Position numbers and translations under genes: made by a program. This document shows positions 8,832 to 19,136 of a stretch of 20,973 bases of DNA, piece by piece. Source of the DNA: a virus; the IMG/VR virus record IMGVR_UViG_3300020474_000158, positions 1 through 20,973 of that record, one strand, 5' to 3'. The notes beneath the pieces were generated by a model. That model had not been told where the DNA came from, did not search any database, and saw only the letters and a program-made list of their open reading frames with translations. Positions within the stretch are counted from its first letter, which is position 1. Each line of letters starts with the position of its first letter.

Positions 8832-9884
8832 TTAACCGATCGCTGGTGCTTTATGTGTAGCTAGATCCAACGGAAAGTTGTGTGCATTGCGCTCATGCAT
8901 TACCTCAAATCCAAGATTTGAACGATTGAGGATGTCAGCCCAAGTGTTAACAACTTGGCCTTGCTGAGCGATAATGGATTGATTAAAGTTGAAGCCGTTC
9001 AGGTTGAACGCCATTGTAGATACGCCCAGAGCAGCAAACCAGATGCCGACAACAGGCCAGGCAGCCAGGAAGAAGTGAAGGCTACGGCTGTTGTTGAAGG
9101 AGGCGTATTGGAAGATCAGGCGACCGAAGTAACCGTGGGCAGCCACGATGTTGTAGGTCTCTTCCTCTTGGCCGAACTTGTAGCCGTAGTTCTGGGACTC
9201 GCTCTCGGTGGTTTCACGCACCAGGGAAGAAGTCACCAGGGAGCCGTGCATGGCGGAGAACAGGCTGCCGCCGAAAACACCTGCGACGCCCAGCATGTGG
9301 AAGGGGTGCATCAGGATGTTATGTTCCGCCTGAAAAACAAGCATGTAATTAAAAGTACCGGAAATGCCAAGAGGCATACCGTCAGAAAAGCTGCCCTGTC
9401 CAAAAGGATAAACAAGGAAGACAGCGGTCGCCGCAGCGACAGGTGCAGAGTAGGCAACAAAGATCCAGGGCCTCATCCCTAGTCGATAGCTAAGTTCCCA
9501 TTCTCGTCCCATGTAAGCAAAGACGCCAATGAGAAAGTGGAAGACGACGAGTTGATACGGTCCCCCGTTATACAACCATTCGTCAAGTGTATTAGCTTCC
9601 CAAATTGGGTAGAAGTGTAGTCCGATGGCATTGCTGCTCGGAACGACGGCTCCCGATATGATGTTGTTTCCATACAGGAGGGAGCCTGCGACTGGTTCTC
9701 TGATTCCATCAATATCTACGGGTGGTGCTGCTACGAAAGCAGTGATAAAGCAAATAGTTGCAGCCAGCAGGCAAGGGATCATCAGGATTCCAAACCAGCC
9801 AACATAAAGTCGATTATTAGTAGAGGTTACCCAGGAGCAAAACTCATCCCAGGTAGACCTCTGTTGTTGAAGTACAGCGGTCAT
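8832..9884 (-). CDS. psbA: Photosystem II reaction-centre protein D1
   Basis: Product of 350 aa, unmistakable D1: five hydrophobic spans, QB/plastoquinone and Mn-cluster segments ([49 protein letters not shown]). It would replace the fast-turning-over host D1 so that photosystem II keeps supplying energy during infection. The C-terminal extension removed by CtpA is short: after DLA only THKAPAIG, eight residues against about 16 in usual cyanobacterial D1. The N-terminus is also a few residues shorter than common. GC content jumps in the middle of the gene (about 55-67% at 9001-9300 against 42-47% on both sides), suggesting recombination. Unusually, the gene sits between ssb and the endonuclease gene. 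Confidence 0.98.
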
Positions 9885-10730: not shown

Positions 10731-10801
10731 TACTTTTTCTTAGTACCTTTTTTAGGCGGACGGCCTTTCTTAGTGCCGTATGTTCCTGGTCCTTGTGGCA
10801 T
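10730..10801 (-). CDS. Micro-protein, 23 aa, GRPPKK type
   Basis: ATG 10801 to TAA; MPQGPGTYGTKKGRPPKKGT followed by KKK. Both ends interlock with neighbours as TAATG (hli stop/its start, and its stop/start of the 79-aa gene), which is strong positional evidence that it is translated. The GRPPKK core resembles an AT-hook (GRP) and occurs in short phage peptides I have seen in cyanophages and other phages. Possible minor-groove DNA binding is inference only. Confidence 0.65.
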   Translation of the reverse strand: MPQGPGTYGTKKGRPPKKGTKKK

Positions 10802-10992
10802 TACCAAACTCCTGGGATAATTTGTCCAGTCAAGGCGTACGCACCAAGCGCAGCGATGACGCCCATCATTGCCAGGCGTCCATTCAGGCGTTCAGCCTTT
10901 TCGTTGTGTGTTTCTGTTACGTCCATAATTTCCATAGGTGGTTCTTTGGCATAGACATTTGTGCGTCCGCCATCTTCAATAACTGTTGTCAT
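10801..10992 (-). CDS. hli: High-light-inducible protein (HLIP)
   Basis: Product of 63 aa. A soluble N-terminal ~30 residues precede a single membrane helix with the Hli/chlorophyll-binding signature EKAERLNGRLAMMGVIAALG, ending ALTGQIIPGVW. In the host thylakoid such proteins bind chlorophyll and carotenoid and protect or help assemble photosystem II, complementing the phage D1 encoded ~0.9 kb downstream. The gene follows ssb by 40 bases and overlaps the next micro-gene. It is a typical cyanophage host-derived gene. Confidence 0.93.
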   Translation of the reverse strand: MTTVIEDGGRTNVYAKEPPMEIMDVTETHNEKAERLNGRLAMMGVIAALGAYALTGQIIPGVW

Positions 10993-11032: not shown

Positions 11033-11599
11033 TCAGAAGTCGTCTTCTACCTCTTCAGGTGTAGGTGTGACATTTGGATCGTTTGTTTTGAATCCTTGTG
11101 TCTTACCAAACAGGTCAGCAACAGCTTCAGGTGCCATGTCACCGGTATCAACACCGGCTTGACCATTACAGGAGACAACCTGAATACCAACTAGCTTCAG
11201 TGATGTGCCATAAGTAACATTATCATTAAGAATATATGGCTTCTGATAAAAAGCAATCTTGACCTGACTACCAGAGTAAAGAGGTAGACGTACATCAGTG
11301 ATTGCTGTACCTTCAGTGTCAACAATAGGAGGCTTTGCCTCTTCATTCCAGCTAAACTTAACGGTGTACTTACCGTCAGATACCTCTTCCCAAGGTTCGG
11401 GTTTAAGAGATGAGCGTTTCGGATTCTTCAGTTTCGATTCAGCCCACTTCAAAGTGGTGGTTCGGTCGTCTTCAAGCTTGTCGATCATTTCTTGATTAAC
11501 AATGGCTTTCAATGAATAGCCAAACTTAGACGGTTGCAGTACTGCCTGGTATCCCTCAAGGACAACAGGATCAGGAGTAACAAATGTGGTTCTTGCCAT
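11033..11599 (-). CDS. ssb: Single-stranded DNA-binding protein, T7 gp2.5-like
   Basis: Product of 188 aa starting MARTTFVTPDPVVLEGYQAV, with an OB-fold-like centre (YTVKFSWNEEAKPPIVDTEG, RLPLYSGSQVKIAFYQKPYI, GTSLKLVGIQVV) and a strongly acidic tail ending EEVEDDF, the protein-interaction tail of gp2.5-type SSBs with a terminal Phe. It coats single-stranded DNA at the fork and contacts polymerase and helicase. I chose ATG 11599 because it interlocks with the RNA polymerase stop as TAATG; an upstream TTG at 11605 adds two residues. Confidence 0.9.
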   Translation of the reverse strand: MARTTFVTPDPVVLEGYQAVLQPSKFGYSLKAIVNQEMIDKLEDDRTTTLKWAESKLKNPKRSSLKPEPWEEVSDGKYTVKFSWNEEAKPPIVDTEGTAITDVRLPLYSGSQVKIAFYQKPYILNDNVTYGTSLKLVGIQVVSCNGQAGVDTGDMAPEAVADLFGKTQGFKTNDPNVTPTPEEVEDDF

Positions 11600-14004
11600 T
11601 AACAAAAAAAATATGTAGATTCAATTACTGACTCAGGTTTTAACGTGTCAATAATCGGTGGTTCAGATTCAGCGCCAATCTGTTGCGCCCAATCTGTTAG
11701 GTAGTCATGTTGCGCAAATAAGTACATGTATGTTTCACGAACGATCTGTGAAAGCATAGACATGTCAGTAGCACGACAAAGTACCGAGTCGTGTATGAGG
11801 GATATCGGAGCGTTAAAGCGTGTTGCAGATAAGTGGAGTAAAGATGCATCAAGTGAATGGATAAGGTTGGGCGCTGTTGCATTTTTGTGATGGTTTTTAT
11901 CAACTTCATTAGTGTTGCCATCAGCCACCTTGATTTGACAACGTCCTAACAATTGAAGCTCTACCATCTTTACGTCTTTCTTCATTAGTTTTTGTGTTAC
12001 CACAAAGCCTGAAGGTGTGACCCATTGCAGTTCACTAGCTCCACGATCAATTGCCGCGGCCACCTCAGATTCAATCCACTTCATGACCTTCATTGGACCA
12101 GGAACGATGACGTTCATGGCATCACGTACAGCCTTGACAGTGGCTGTCAGATCTTCGGAAGTAAAAGTAACAGCTTTGTCTCTCAAATCACTTTCGACAG
12201 CGTACCTATCAGTATCTTCTTTGACATATTCTAATTTCTTAGAAAGTAAAGCTTCTTTGATATAAGATCGGTTGCTGAAAGGTTTAGCATTGTAAGGCAC
12301 AGTCATGACCGTTCTTTTGGTCGTTTTTCTGTCCATGTACGGTTGTAAATGAACAGGTACGTGAGGTTTAGCTTCGTCAGCTATTACTTTGTATGCGTCT
12401 TGTGGTCTATCACTTGGAAGAACATTAACTAATTTGGCTGTACTTGCATCTCTTGCCAATCCGGCAAGAATTTGTAACCCACTGCATGTAGCATCAACTG
12501 CAACAGGCAAGTTAGTGTAATTGCGATCACACTCGATGACACAATGATAGTATTCATCGCAGGCAGCAAGGAAAGTCCAAGGGTCTTCTGCTCCTTCCCA
12601 TTCGGATAAGTTACCGACCGGGTCTTTTGCAATACGTTCAATTAGATTTCTATTTTCAAGTGTCCATGTCATACGTTCAGGCATTGTTGCCTTATCAAGT
12701 CCGTATGTGGTTGCACACTGAAATGCGAGCCAGTGCTCCGCTTCAGGTGTCATGAACGCGTGATTGTGAAACTTAAGTAGTGATTTACCAAAGTCTGTAT
12801 CTTGTGGTGTCAAGAATGCTGGGATTGGATAAGCTCTTCCTCTGTAATCCAGACTCCAAGGCAAGAAAAATTTCTCTACATCCTTGAATCTTTCCACCGC
12901 ATTCATTGTCATCCGTGTACGACATGACTTTTTGAATGCTTGTTTGTTGATGTTGCAAACCTCTGTAGCTCGTCGCCTGTAATCGTGACGTGCTTCCGCA
13001 TTATCAGCGATGTCAGGTGGCTTAGGTGGTAGAGGTAGCTCAACAATCGGTATGAATTTTCCGACTTGTATTTGACGTTCTTGGAGTGTCTTTGCGACAC
13101 CCACGATGAACGGGTTCAGGGTGTAAGCAACCTTTTGAATTCGGTTAAGGAAATCAACGGGTTGTTCTCCCTGTATACGGTAGGGGTTTCCTCTGCGGAC
13201 CATGTCGTAGCCTCGCATCACCTCATTGAGGATGTATCCGCCGTGATTTCCGTCAGGTGTCCAATCGTTTGGCTCGATCAGCATCGGCCACGCCAACGGG
13301 CTAAACAGCTCCGCTTGCGCCATGATGTCGTCCTTGACGGATAAGAACTCAGGCGTTGGGCTTACTTCAAGGATTGTCTTACGTCCTTGTCTACGGGTGG
13401 TCTTCATGAAGTAGTTGCTGACTTCACAAATGCAGTCGAGCAACCAGCCACCAAGCTTGACTCTGTTGGTTCTTCCCCACTTATCCCAGGTGTCAACGTT
13501 ATAACGTTTCATCAACGTTTTGATGACTGTTACTTTTTGTGTCGTACCAATTGAGCGATGAAAGTAATTCTCTTTTAAAACGTTGAGAAGCCCAGGAACG
13601 TTGCGTTCGTAATGACGCATCATGCACTCATTTTCGACAGCTGTGCCTATTGCATCAGTAATATTTGTGATTGTTGATTGACCTGGCTTGATGCTAAATA
13701 CCTTGTCAAAGGTAACTTTTAAAGCAATAGCTGCAGCTGCTTCAGCTTCGAGATCTTGGAGAAAACGGATGATCTCAGCAAACGCAACTCCTGCACTTCC
13801 TTGCCTTACCCGATTTGCAGTGCCAGTAATACGATTAACAATATCAGGGAGGAGCTGCTCAATAGAAACAACCCCGTATACTGAAGCGGATGCATAACTT
13901 TTCTCCTCAAGTTTGTGAGTGTTGTCTCTTAAGTCTTTGAGTCCTTGTCTGATTTGTTCTCGTTCAAGGGCTATTTGTTCGTCAATCTGTCCTGGTGTTG
14001 GCAA
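11599..14004 (-). CDS. T7-like single-subunit DNA-dependent RNA polymerase
   Basis: Product of 801 aa (T7 gp1 is 883). Palm motifs are complete: motif A AVDATCSGLQILAG (D504), motif B TKRTVMTVPYNAKPF (K563, Y571) and motif C LIHDSVL (D739). Also present are LPWSLDYRGRAYPI (~381-394), a specificity-loop-like WVTPSGFVVTQKL (~661-673) and HHKNATAPNLIHSLDAS. It transcribes the middle and late phage genes. The start appears to be TTG at 14004: an in-frame TAA lies 15 bases upstream and no ATG occurs before MTM... deep inside, while GGA lies a few bases before the TTG. The C-terminus YFFC differs from the FAFA of T7. It contains one copy of the 26-bp repeat at codons ~271-280. Confidence 0.96.
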   Translation of the reverse strand: MPTPGQIDEQIALEREQIRQGLKDLRDNTHKLEEKSYASASVYGVVSIEQLLPDIVNRITGTANRVRQGSAGVAFAEIIRFLQDLEAEAAAAIALKVTFDKVFSIKPGQSTITNITDAIGTAVENECMMRHYERNVPGLLNVLKENYFHRSIGTTQKVTVIKTLMKRYNVDTWDKWGRTNRVKLGGWLLDCICEVSNYFMKTTRRQGRKTILEVSPTPEFLSVKDDIMAQAELFSPLAWPMLIEPNDWTPDGNHGGYILNEVMRGYDMVRRGNPYRIQGEQPVDFLNRIQKVAYTLNPFIVGVAKTLQERQIQVGKFIPIVELPLPPKPPDIADNAEARHDYRRRATEVCNINKQAFKKSCRTRMTMNAVERFKDVEKFFLPWSLDYRGRAYPIPAFLTPQDTDFGKSLLKFHNHAFMTPEAEHWLAFQCATTYGLDKATMPERMTWTLENRNLIERIAKDPVGNLSEWEGAEDPWTFLAACDEYYHCVIECDRNYTNLPVAVDATCSGLQILAGLARDASTAKLVNVLPSDRPQDAYKVIADEAKPHVPVHLQPYMDRKTTKRTVMTVPYNAKPFSNRSYIKEALLSKKLEYVKEDTDRYAVESDLRDKAVTFTSEDLTATVKAVRDAMNVIVPGPMKVMKWIESEVAAAIDRGASELQWVTPSGFVVTQKLMKKDVKMVELQLLGRCQIKVADGNTNEVDKNHHKNATAPNLIHSLDASLLHLSATRFNAPISLIHDSVLCRATDMSMLSQIVRETYMYLFAQHDYLTDWAQQIGAESEPPIIDTLKPESVIESTYFFC
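13165..13190 (-). promoter_or_regulatory. 26-bp exact repeat, copy 1: candidate phage RNA polymerase promoter inside the polymerase gene
   Basis: On the minus strand the repeat ends in CGTATACAGGGAGAA. Its last half resembles the initiation end of the T7 promoter (CACTATAGGGAGA), with GGGAGA at the expected start point. An identical 26-mer lies at 19334-19359. Here it also encodes part of the RNA polymerase (GNPYRIQGE). A promoter here would add transcripts towards ssb and the replication genes. The function is inferred; the identity is seen. Confidence 0.5.
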
Positions 14005-14066
14005 TGAGATTCCGCGTTAGTACCGGTGATTACACTGTTGACCAAGTGCAACCGTGATTGTGAAAG

Positions 14067-14094
14067 AAAGGTCAGGGCGCGGACCCCGACCTTT
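14067..14094 (-). terminator. Stem-loop in the RNA polymerase leader
   Basis: Stem AAAGGTC/GACCTTT continues, after one A-C mismatch, into GGG/CCC with a 6-base loop, between the attP-like site and the polymerase gene. On the minus strand the tail is CTTTC-type, following a stem that itself ends in TTT, giving TTTCTTTC. It could be an intrinsic terminator or attenuator between the integrase region and the RNA polymerase, or an RNase III-type processing site as found around T7 early genes. Confidence 0.5.
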
Positions 14095-14111: not shown

Positions 14112-14160
14112 TTCAGGTAGAACCTGAAACTAGCGCGTCTACCAATTCCGCCACATCCGC
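14112..14160 (-). other. attP: Putative attP: 5' half of a tRNA-Leu(CAG) gene
   Basis: Read on the minus strand from 14160, the sequence begins GCGGATGTGGCGGAATTGGT, the 5' acceptor and D-arm of a tRNA-Leu, and runs to the anticodon loop TTCAGGT (anticodon CAG, 14126-14124), ~39 bases. It then departs from tRNA sequence: there is no variable arm, TTCGA arm or matching 3' acceptor, so it is not a functional tRNA. The point of divergence is a perfect 7-bp inverted repeat, TTCAGGT-TCT-ACCTGAA (14128-14112), as expected for a tyrosine-recombinase core. From memory, cyanophage P-SSP7 has a ~42-bp tRNA-Leu match downstream of its integrase. The integrase gene ends 322 bases upstream. Confidence 0.8.
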
Positions 14161-14243
14161 GTGTGGATTCCAGCGATGAGTCTCAGTGAGAACTCCGTCG
14201 CTTGGGAACGAAACCAGTGTACAACGCTACCCATTAGTCACGC

Positions 14244-14414
14244 CTAGACAGAGATCAAAGATCTCCCTCTGCGTCTTTTGTGCTCAACCTCTAGAACGTG
14301 GTCAAGCATGTGTTCGACCCAGTTCCCGTGTGACTCAGAATGAGCCCGAGCTTCGTCATCAAACTCCATGCAAGCGCAAAGAGCTTGGACGTTGTAATAC
14401 GTCACGTGTTCCAT
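14244..14414 (-). CDS. Hypothetical protein, 56 aa, between integrase and attP
   Basis: ATG 14414 to TAG 14244; begins MEHVTYYNVQALCACMEFDD and continues EARAHSESHGNWVEHMLDHV, ending in a basic stretch HKRRRGRSLISV. The helix-like middle and the basic tail make it a plausible DNA-binding accessory protein, possibly a recombination directionality factor given the position beside the integrase, but there is no recognisable domain. No Shine-Dalgarno is visible. The rest of 14161-14243 carries only a small hairpin (14178-14195) and no gene. Confidence 0.45.
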   Translation of the reverse strand: MEHVTYYNVQALCACMEFDDEARAHSESHGNWVEHMLDHVLEVEHKRRRGRSLISV

Positions 14415-14481: not shown

Positions 14482-15336
14482 CTAGATCGCAGCCATAGCC
14501 GCTTCTGCAGCTGAGTCCGTGTGCTTGGCGTAATGCAGGGTTGTCTCGATCCGCTTGTGTCCCATCAAACCCATCAGGGTTCTCATAGGCGTACCGGCAA
14601 TGGCGTGCCACGTACCGAAACTGTGACGCAGATCGTGGAAGGAATAGGCAGGAGCCTGTGCGTAGTCCCTGACCTTCTTAAAGGACAACAGGAGCTGATC
14701 CTTGTTGCCGACATCGTCGAACACCTTGACGCTTGGAGAGGCGTGCTCCAGGCGCTTACAGAGCACGTTCCTGATCCTTGGATGGATAGGGATGGCTCGG
14801 TAGTTCTTGGCCTTGGTCTTGAGGTGAGGTACGCCACCCACATGAATGCGTGGTGCAGCACCGTCAAGGTCAATGTCTTGTGCCTTGAGCTTGAGCAGCT
14901 CACCTTGCCGCATGCCTGTGTAGGCAGCGACAACAATGATGTCTGAGATCTCATCACGAGCGAAGGGATCCAGAGCTGCAAGGCTGATGTTTTCCACTTG
15001 GTCCTGGGTAAACCAGAACATGCGACGTTCGCCTTCGTCGTACTTCTCAAACACAGGTGCAGATTCACACATCTCCCGCTTGGCACAGCAATTAATGACA
15101 GTGCCGATTGCAGTAATGCAACGGTTGATTGTTGAATCTTGAACACCACGCTCTTCCTTCAGATACGCAGCAAACAAGTCCATCTGTACTTGATTGATAC
15201 GTTCAACAGGAAAGGAACGACCAGCAAAGCTAGTGAAATGTCCTGTGTTGATTTTGTTTGTTTTAAGGCCAGCTTTGCCTGCCCACTTAGTTTTAAGTGT
15301 GTAGTCCAAAGCTTCACCCCAGGTGAATTTAGCCAT
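14482..15336 (-). CDS. int: Tyrosine recombinase / phage integrase
   Basis: Product of 284 aa. The N-terminal SAM-like core-binding domain spans ~1-100; the catalytic domain has R143 (AYTGMRQGELLKL), the beta-hairpin Lys in KTKAKNYRAIPI (~173-177), H234-x2-R237 (SFHDLRHSFGTW), H260 (MGLMGHKRIETT) and nucleophile Y269 (LHYAKH). All six active-site positions are present, so it should be active. It would recombine attP with a host tRNA-Leu. ATG 15336 overlaps the MarR-like gene stop by 8 bases, so regulator and integrase are probably co-expressed. Lysogeny by marine cyanopodoviruses is rarely shown, so use in vivo is uncertain. Confidence 0.95.
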   Translation of the reverse strand: MAKFTWGEALDYTLKTKWAGKAGLKTNKINTGHFTSFAGRSFPVERINQVQMDLFAAYLKEERGVQDSTINRCITAIGTVINCCAKREMCESAPVFEKYDEGERRMFWFTQDQVENISLAALDPFARDEISDIIVVAAYTGMRQGELLKLKAQDIDLDGAAPRIHVGGVPHLKTKAKNYRAIPIHPRIRNVLCKRLEHASPSVKVFDDVGNKDQLLLSFKKVRDYAQAPAYSFHDLRHSFGTWHAIAGTPMRTLMGLMGHKRIETTLHYAKHTDSAAEAAMAAI

Positions 15337-15715
15337 TGAGTAGGATGGATAAACGTTGGGCTAGTTTGCGTCCTTCAGATGTCATCTTGAGGATACGCAA
15401 CCGTTTGTTGGGTTGATACACCTCCTTGGTAATAAGGTTTAATCCCCTTTGTGGATTGCTCCGGTGCTCACCAGTCAGCCACGTTGTGTTACGTGAACAA
15501 CTAGCAGCAGATAAGCCGAGTTCCTCTTGCATCTCTTGCGTAGTGCAACCGTCATGGGTAGCAACGAAGAGAAAACAAGCGATAACTTGGGCAGGCATCT
15601 CGACATCAAGAACCCGTAGGGTCTCGATCACGTTCAGTAGACGGGTGAGATCTGCTTTGGCCTTGAGGCTGATTGGTTCCAAAATGGAAGTAGGGGAAAC
15701 ATAAGTGTAGCACAA
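15329..15715 (-). CDS. MarR-like winged-helix transcriptional regulator
   Basis: Up to 128 aa. A leading helix (AKADLTRLLNVIETLRVLDV) is followed by MPAQVIACFLFVATHDGCTT, the recognition region QEMQEELGLSAASCSRNTTW, a wing with basic residues (EVYQPNKRLRILKMTSEG) and a closing helix. This order is typical of MarR-type wHTH proteins. No ATG is available: in-frame starts are TTG 15715 or TTG 15682, and a stop lies at 15722-15724. It overlaps the 79-aa ORF by 110 bases in another frame. Directly upstream of and overlapping int, it is a candidate controller of integration or early transcription. Confidence 0.75.
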   Translation of the reverse strand: MCYTYVSPTSILEPISLKAKADLTRLLNVIETLRVLDVEMPAQVIACFLFVATHDGCTTQEMQEELGLSAASCSRNTTWLTGEHRSNPQRGLNLITKEVYQPNKRLRILKMTSEGRKLAQRLSILLNG

Positions 15716-18503: not shown

Positions 18504-19136
18504 TCATTTTCCTAGCCAAGCCTTAGCTACCAGCGGAAACTGCTGAATAATCAGGTCTTTACATTCATCAGCGACATCTTTGTGTTCTTTCTGTGTACCA
18601 TTAGCACATCTTAGCTCACAATAATGAATCCAAGACCGCAAAGACCCATTCATGTACATCTTTGTCGGTGTACAAAGCGGTAAAGCCTCTCTAGCACATT
18701 CTTTAGCGACACCATCTTTAAGCATTGACTCATATATCTGAGTAGCTTGTTCAAAATGATGTTGTAGTCGTAGTTGGTAATGCTGTAACGTAAAAGCATC
18801 GAGGTCATCAGTACTATTCTGTCTGTTTTTTGTATCTTGTCTACGTAACTCAGGAACACCAATAGGATCAGTGACTTGAGCATAACGTTGACTGAACTCT
18901 TGAAAAGAGAAACTACGATGACGTAGTATCTGTGCAGCTATACTTCTAGTTGTATTGATTTCTACACACATATTGACCATCTCAAAGGGAGACCAATGTT
19001 TATGTGTAATGAGATATTTAATTAGACGACCACTGGTCTCAGTGTTGTCTTGATTGTTTGGATTAGACACCCTAGCCATATAAGCTACTAGGTTGTCACC
19101 ATCAGGTGTAGAGTGAATTAATTTTACGTGTGTCAT
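18504..19136 (-). CDS. thyX: Flavin-dependent thymidylate synthase
   Basis: Product of 210 aa. The ThyX signature RHRSFSFQEFSQRY (residues 72-85, RHRxxSxxxxSxR) is intact, preceded by HWSPFEMVNMCVEI, the FAD-binding face, and followed by HYCELRCANGTQKEHKDVAD near the C-terminus. It methylates dUMP to dTMP using FAD, NADPH and methylene-tetrahydrofolate, complementing the RNR and MazG encoded elsewhere in this genome. Its position directly after the terminase puts it at the right genome end. Its coding strand is more A/T-rich than the replication genes. Direct repeats and a hairpin precede it, suggesting its own control. Confidence 0.95.
   Translation of the reverse strand: MTHVKLIHSTPDGDNLVAYMARVSNPNNQDNTETSGRLIKYLITHKHWSPFEMVNMCVEINTTRSIAAQILRHRSFSFQEFSQRYAQVTDPIGVPELRRQDTKNRQNSTDDLDAFTLQHYQLRLQHHFEQATQIYESMLKDGVAKECAREALPLCTPTKMYMNGSLRSWIHYCELRCANGTQKEHKDVADECKDLIIQQFPLVAKAWLGK

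Follow-up and report, generated by a model that had tools for sequence, protein, structure and literature searches.

The tRNA-Leu attachment site of T7-like cyanophages probably lies within a self-contained cassette with a promoter motif and a terminator-like hairpin

Nearly all bacterial elements that integrate into tRNA genes keep the host promoter. Ordinary temperate phages that target tRNA genes share a tyrosine integrase and tRNA rebuilding with the phage considered here, but they carry the 3′ half of the gene and the host promoter stays in charge, whereas this phage carries the 5′ half. The window, by which we mean the whole stretch of DNA that was analysed (a 20,973-base virus record whose source phage is a marine T7-like cyanophage), was described in an earlier note as containing an attP with the 5′ half of tRNA-Leu(CAG), so that integration would rebuild the tRNA behind phage DNA. 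The question raised by this locus is what would then drive the tRNA gene. The best explanation, to which we assign a probability of about 0.83, is that the attP of this integrase-bearing T7-like cyanophage is part of a self-contained ‘tRNA rescue cassette’, in which the order of elements would be int, arm-like repeats, an extended −10 promoter, a leader, the tRNA-Leu 5′ half and a terminator (Table 1).

The nearest isolate by coverage is S-TIP37, to which the window is 74% identical over 35% of the window length, including a match to the S-TIP37 int/RNA polymerase region. In culture, S-TIP37 and P-SSP7 integrate at tRNA-Leu, and S-TIP37 integration needs both int and attP (Shitrit et al. 2021, PMC8776855). 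This attP type is therefore already known (Shitrit et al. 2021, PMC8776855; see also Mizuno et al. 2013, PMC3861242), and the window attP is a further case of it: the gene order is that of the other T7-like cyanophage attPs (P-SSP7, S-TIP37 and others; PMC8776855), and the window shares with them a perfect match of ~39 bp to the tRNA gene, an int directly upstream on the same strand and the phage group. The core is located in the interval between the genes for the tyrosine integrase and the T7-like RNA polymerase, with the 5′ half and the upstream int oriented as first described and one 56-aa ORF between int and attP. A PHROG search with this ORF (14244-14414) returned no family; its stop codon is the TAG within a TCTAG element, and it could be a candidate recombination directionality factor. 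ARAGORN found no whole tRNA in the 21-kb window, and the record may be part of a genome only. The pelagiphage HTVC019P was considered as a further member and rejected, as its int-RNAP spacer is without this layout.

Several other genes of the window can be mentioned. A transcriptional regulator (PHROG 9665; 15329-15715, −) lies immediately upstream of int and overlaps the int start, and the gene at this position in S-CBP1 and S-CBP2 is annotated as MarR family. When the translations of the ORFs at 8832-9884, 10801-10992 and 18504-19136 (all −) were judged by eye, they were read as psbA (photosystem II D1), which blast supports, and as probable high-light-inducible protein and ThyX thymidylate synthase genes.

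Table 1. Coordinates of features at and around the attP; all lie on the minus strand of the window.
Feature	Position	Strand	Evidence
T7-like RNA polymerase gene, after the attP cassette	11599..14004	-	ORF; window matches the S-TIP37 int/RNA polymerase region
Terminator-like hairpin AAAGGTCGGGG-TCCGCG-CCCTGACCTTT-CTTT, in the interval between attP and the RNA polymerase gene	14063..14094	-	37/46 dissimilar loci; folds
Inverted repeat TTCAGGT-TCT-ACCTGAA, incidental	14112..14128	-	exact in 1/130 attP loci
Anticodon loop TTCAGGT, likely 7-bp strand-exchange overlap region	14122..14128	-	host identity ends there in most attPs; provirus junctions consistent
attP core, 5′ half of tRNA-Leu(CAG), 39 nt	14122..14160	-	identical to host tRNA-Leu genes
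Leader of the rebuilt pre-tRNA; hairpin AAGCGA...TCGCT at 14172-14203	14161..14215	-	fold -18.4 kcal/mol
-10 element TACACT, facing the tRNA half; TTG-TACACT versus TGn-TAnnnT	14216..14221	-	motif in relatives; tRNA-Leu(UAA) set
TCTAGGCGTGACTA, pair of CTA units ~10 bp apart	14235..14248	-	motif in 33/55 dissimilar loci; shuffles 1.2, reverse strand 0
56-aa ORF, int-attP interval	14244..14414	-	in relative L016; similar ORFs in L010, L047
Tyrosine integrase gene (284 aa)	14482..15336	-	PF00589 Phage_integrase E 8e-20; PHROG_1 integrase E 1e-42

When read on the minus strand, positions 14122-14160 are GCGGATGTGGCGGAATTGGTAGACGCGCTAGTTTCAGGT, which is identical at 39/39 bases to the 5′ half of picocyanobacterial tRNA-Leu(CAG). 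The 36-base inner part of the core was matched exactly in 120 bacterial loci, most of them Synechococcus, Cyanobium or Prochlorococcus and a few from other bacteria or mislabelled bins, and in 118 of these a complete tRNA-Leu(CAG) gene is present, with the core as its opening 39 nt. One of the remaining two loci (L165) is cut off at its end and the other is a provirus junction (L199, AG-670-B23), which is described below. Alignment to picocyanobacterial genes, as proposed earlier, thus revealed the expected sharing of ~39 bases; as for the site originally delimited as 14112-14160, its core holds at 14122-14160, but the ten further bases are phage-only sequence. The exact attP or attL (TC-type) string was absent from the 400 family genomes searched.

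Phage and host share their sequence through the whole 7-nt anticodon loop, TTCAGGT, and diverge directly 3′ of it. In a typical host gene the loop is followed by ACTAGTGGCAGCAATGTCG, and directly after it the phage has TCTACC where the host has ACTAGT (beyond the loop, TCTACCTG in the phage and ACTAGTGG in the host). Among the first ten bases 3′ of the loop, the only one that is strongly kept in 46 dissimilar loci is a C at +2, a base that the host shares. We read these patterns as pointing to a crossover in or beside the anticodon loop, which is a usual place of exchange for this class of integrase (PMC8371274).

A perfect 7-bp inverted repeat at the end of the shared core (TTCAGGT-TCT-ACCTGAA) had been put forward as a likely crossover core. 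The repeat is indeed present, but this role was rejected, since its exact sequence was found in only one of the 130 related attP loci with enough downstream sequence, namely the window itself, and what the loci share as a core extends no further than the anticodon loop. That it might instead be a functional crossover core specific to the phage of the window is barely credible, given that the close relatives L016 (whose integrase is 98% identical to that of the window) and L109 have TTTAGCTGAA in its place and that one of its arms is the host anticodon loop itself. The repeat gives no sign of being more than a chance addition to a fixed anticodon loop.

With regard to the promoter, a plain sigma-70 scan of the window alone found no promoter and a generic scan found no terminator, so a comparison across relatives was needed. 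When the DNA upstream of the tRNA half was aligned across relatives, within a comparison set of over 200 related sites, a CTA-repeat block was found, followed by TGnTAnnnT, an extended −10 motif that faces the tRNA. This motif is present in 52 of the 55 loci that are <70% identical to one another, as compared with a mean of 3.6 (maximum 10) in dinucleotide shuffles of the same set, 0 on the reverse strand, and a background of 4.5% (same strand) or 6% (other strand) of ordinary 130-nt windows from the same contigs. The motif had been defined on tRNA-Leu(CAG) loci, so it was retested on an independent set of P-SSP7-type attPs in tRNA-Leu(UAA), where it was found in 11 of 14 dissimilar loci (shuffles 2.2, maximum 6) and, in ten of the 11, at 19-20 nt before the tRNA; the remaining loci have TACAAT- or TATAAT-like boxes near the same place, so a −10-like box is present in 14/14. 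In P-SSP7 the sequence is TGTTATAAT, the full extended −10 consensus, and TGnTAnnnT is also found in S-TIP28, S-CBP1, S-CBP2 and S-SRP01, while S-TIP37 has GTAGTACCATT. The window is among the few loci without the exact TG, and with TTG in place of TGn its promoter copy may be weak. The earlier view that no promoter is recognisable in 14161-14243 was therefore overturned by comparison, which revealed a conserved extended −10 motif and a leader between int and attP in nearly all relatives. From these alignments we infer that the motif is active as a promoter and drives the rebuilt tRNA.

There is precedent for another source of transcription. Archaeal pTN3-like elements also carry the 5′ half of tRNA-Leu, and they rely on the integrase promoter to express the tRNA once it is rebuilt (review, PMC8371274); if read-through from int served the same purpose in these phages, the local −10 element would be irrelevant. 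In all the annotated isolates that were inspected int points to the tRNA half, which would allow this, but nearly all loci have a dedicated promoter motif in the interval that separates int from the tRNA half, and this makes such a route quite unlikely.

The CTA units, which are most often found 24 and 14 nt before the −10 motif, suggest that the pair at 14235-14248 represents candidate arm-type integrase sites. Their spacing of ~10 bp and their position adjoining the −10-like string could also mean that the whole conserved upstream block is only DNA bound by integrase or excisionase, and that the −10-like string belongs to a site for such a protein. We regard this as very unlikely, since the string is conserved in the manner of an extended −10 element (the TG, the TA and the final T are kept and the bases between them vary), is one-directional (reverse strand 0), reads TGTTATAAT in P-SSP7, has a near-fixed position 19-20 nt ahead of UAA-type tRNAs, and is separated from the CTA repeats by a distance that differs between groups.

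Downstream of the promoter motif, the distance from the −10 element to the tRNA ranges from 19 to 112 nt, depending on the group. The leader hairpin of the window is retained in a 166-nt fold, and the predicted promoter-to-terminator transcript folds better than shuffles (z −2.84). RNAalifold on the pooled leader set found no significant consensus or covariation, so a conserved RNA structure is not claimed beyond single-sequence folds. On the other side of the tRNA half, a GC-rich hairpin followed by a T-run was found in 37 of 46 dissimilar loci, as compared with 1.65 in shuffles. S-TIP28, in which a gene other than that for RNA polymerase comes next, has such a hairpin too; this argues against the downstream gene as the intended target of the promoter.

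These elements raise the possibility that the promoter serves a small phage RNA during lytic infection, composed of the leader, the tRNA half and the terminator, and that expression of the rebuilt tRNA is a by-product. Transcription of free phage DNA from this promoter would yield an RNA of about 150 nt, ending at the terminator, with the predicted fold described above, but the leader is the most variable part of the cassette in length (19 to 112 nt) and in sequence, whereas promoter motif and tRNA half are both conserved, and an Rfam search found no match; we therefore consider it unlikely that a small RNA is the main purpose. The two uses are not exclusive.

According to the cassette model, strand exchange by the integrase would take place within the anticodon loop of the host tRNA-Leu or close to it. 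One of the resulting junctions would place the phage terminator behind the host promoter and the host 5′ half, and this terminator would stop read-through into phage genes and so insulate them. At the other junction, the phage promoter, leader and 5′ half would be joined to the host 3′ half to give a complete tRNA-Leu(CAG), so the host would keep this gene, now under phage control, and this would presumably be the benefit of the arrangement. The rebuilding of the tRNA behind phage DNA agrees with the layout published for this group. No stable lysogens were observed by Shitrit et al. (2021, PMC8776855), so selection for tRNA expression may be weak or limited to short-lived integration.

Intact prophages of this group were reported to be missing both from isolates and from single-cell genomes, of which there were hundreds (PMC8776855). 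A natural provirus with both hybrid junctions was found here; prophages and hybrid attL/attR reads were among the things that the earlier note had suggested looking for. A genome scan identified a locus (L199) that combines the host promoter side with the right side of the phage, in the Synechococcus single-cell genome AG-670-B23 (QCSL01000012.1). This contig of 52,265 bases encodes an integrase, T7-like RNA polymerase, terminase, major capsid protein, head-tail connector, DNA polymerase and primase-helicase. Its attL, at 48124 (minus strand), consists of host upstream DNA with TATGTT, the 39-nt half and then phage sequence with the terminator, and the host flank is 87% identical to the same locus of Synechococcus MU1642. 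At its attR, near 2610, int comes to its end and is followed by CTA repeats, TGCTATATT and a leader, after which ARAGORN identified a complete tRNA-Leu(CAG). Both junctions fall at the predicted place, and the core-to-core distance of 45,514 nt (a 45.5-kb provirus) is the size of a T7-like cyanophage genome. The contig thus holds a T7-like provirus with both predicted junctions, in one assembly that leaves some residual room for a chimera; the cell may have been either a lysogen or in the course of an infection. The rebuilt tRNA-Leu(CAG) (L261:2571-2610, −) has one extra D-loop base (GGAATCTGG versus GGAATTGG) that the attL copy is without; if this base is derived from the phage, the exchange took place 3′ of it, in agreement with the anticodon loop. 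A literature search found no paper naming AG-670-B23, although papers beyond those searched may do so.

An apparent scar was found in the freshwater Synechococcaceae MAG CANCJV010000068.1, where GGACTACTGC, TGATAAGGT and a leader ending in GAATCCCCAC directly precede a complete tRNA-Leu(CAG) (phage-type block and tRNA at L264:7662-7760, −), and no integrase match was found in this genome. This looks like a phage promoter that was left behind and still serves the host gene, an apparent case of promoter capture with a binning error as the caveat, and it was the only such case among 400 family genomes in a search with one exact leader-tRNA string. On balance, we lean toward the broader proposal that T7-like cyanophages as a group carry a promoter-leader-terminator cassette that replaces the host tRNA promoter on integration, that complete natural proviruses exist, and that in at least one lineage tRNA-Leu(CAG) has remained permanently under a phage-type promoter.

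It is useful to compare this arrangement with known systems, since element-supplied tRNA promoters are rarely encountered in bacteria (PMC8371274). Like pTN3-like elements, the element in the window carries the 5′ half and, as we infer, the promoter of the rebuilt tRNA. In pTN3-like elements the attP is inside int, which is split on integration, whereas the attP of the window is outside int, 321 bp past the int stop, and has its own promoter motif and terminator. In the tRNA-dependent lysogeny of the actinobacteriophages Fionnbharth and Gaia, the phage supplies a whole tRNA with its own promoter (PMC10865867). In both that system and, by our reading, this one, the phage takes over the supply of a tRNA disrupted by integration by means of a phage promoter, but Fionnbharth and Gaia have an entire tRNA gene together with a short core from which the host gene is not rebuilt, whereas the phage of the window has a 39-bp core consisting of the 5′ half, no whole tRNA within a record that may be part of a genome only, and a related provirus in which tRNA-Leu(CAG) is rebuilt. 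The present case, which combines half of a tRNA with a predicted dedicated promoter and terminator, is intermediate between these two systems. In the main text of Shitrit et al. (PMC8776855) the single use of ‘promoter’ concerns a plasmid, and no phage promoter, leader or terminator around attP is described; what appears to be new relative to that study is the conserved promoter motif, leader and terminator around attP, and a whole provirus with both junctions.

If an abundant group of ocean phages supplies a dedicated promoter and terminator, as it seems to do, it becomes testable now whether there is selection on integration by ‘lytic’ phages to keep the host cell translating. This bears on the reason for which T7-like cyanophages retain int and attP although they do not form stable lysogens, and the AG-670-B23 provirus provides a concrete natural case in a group reported to lack intact prophages.

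Two further observations concern the host genomes. AG-670-B23 contains a second integrase-like gene on another contig (G001:C48:7213-7803, L265), the product of which is 35% identical to the integrase of the window. In addition, the marine hosts L199, L139, L144, L152 and L165 have a conserved string, GAGACCGTCTAGA(C/G)(G/A)GCCGGCG, upstream of tRNA-Leu(CAG), where it is positioned between this gene and a divergent EPSP synthase/MurA-type gene.
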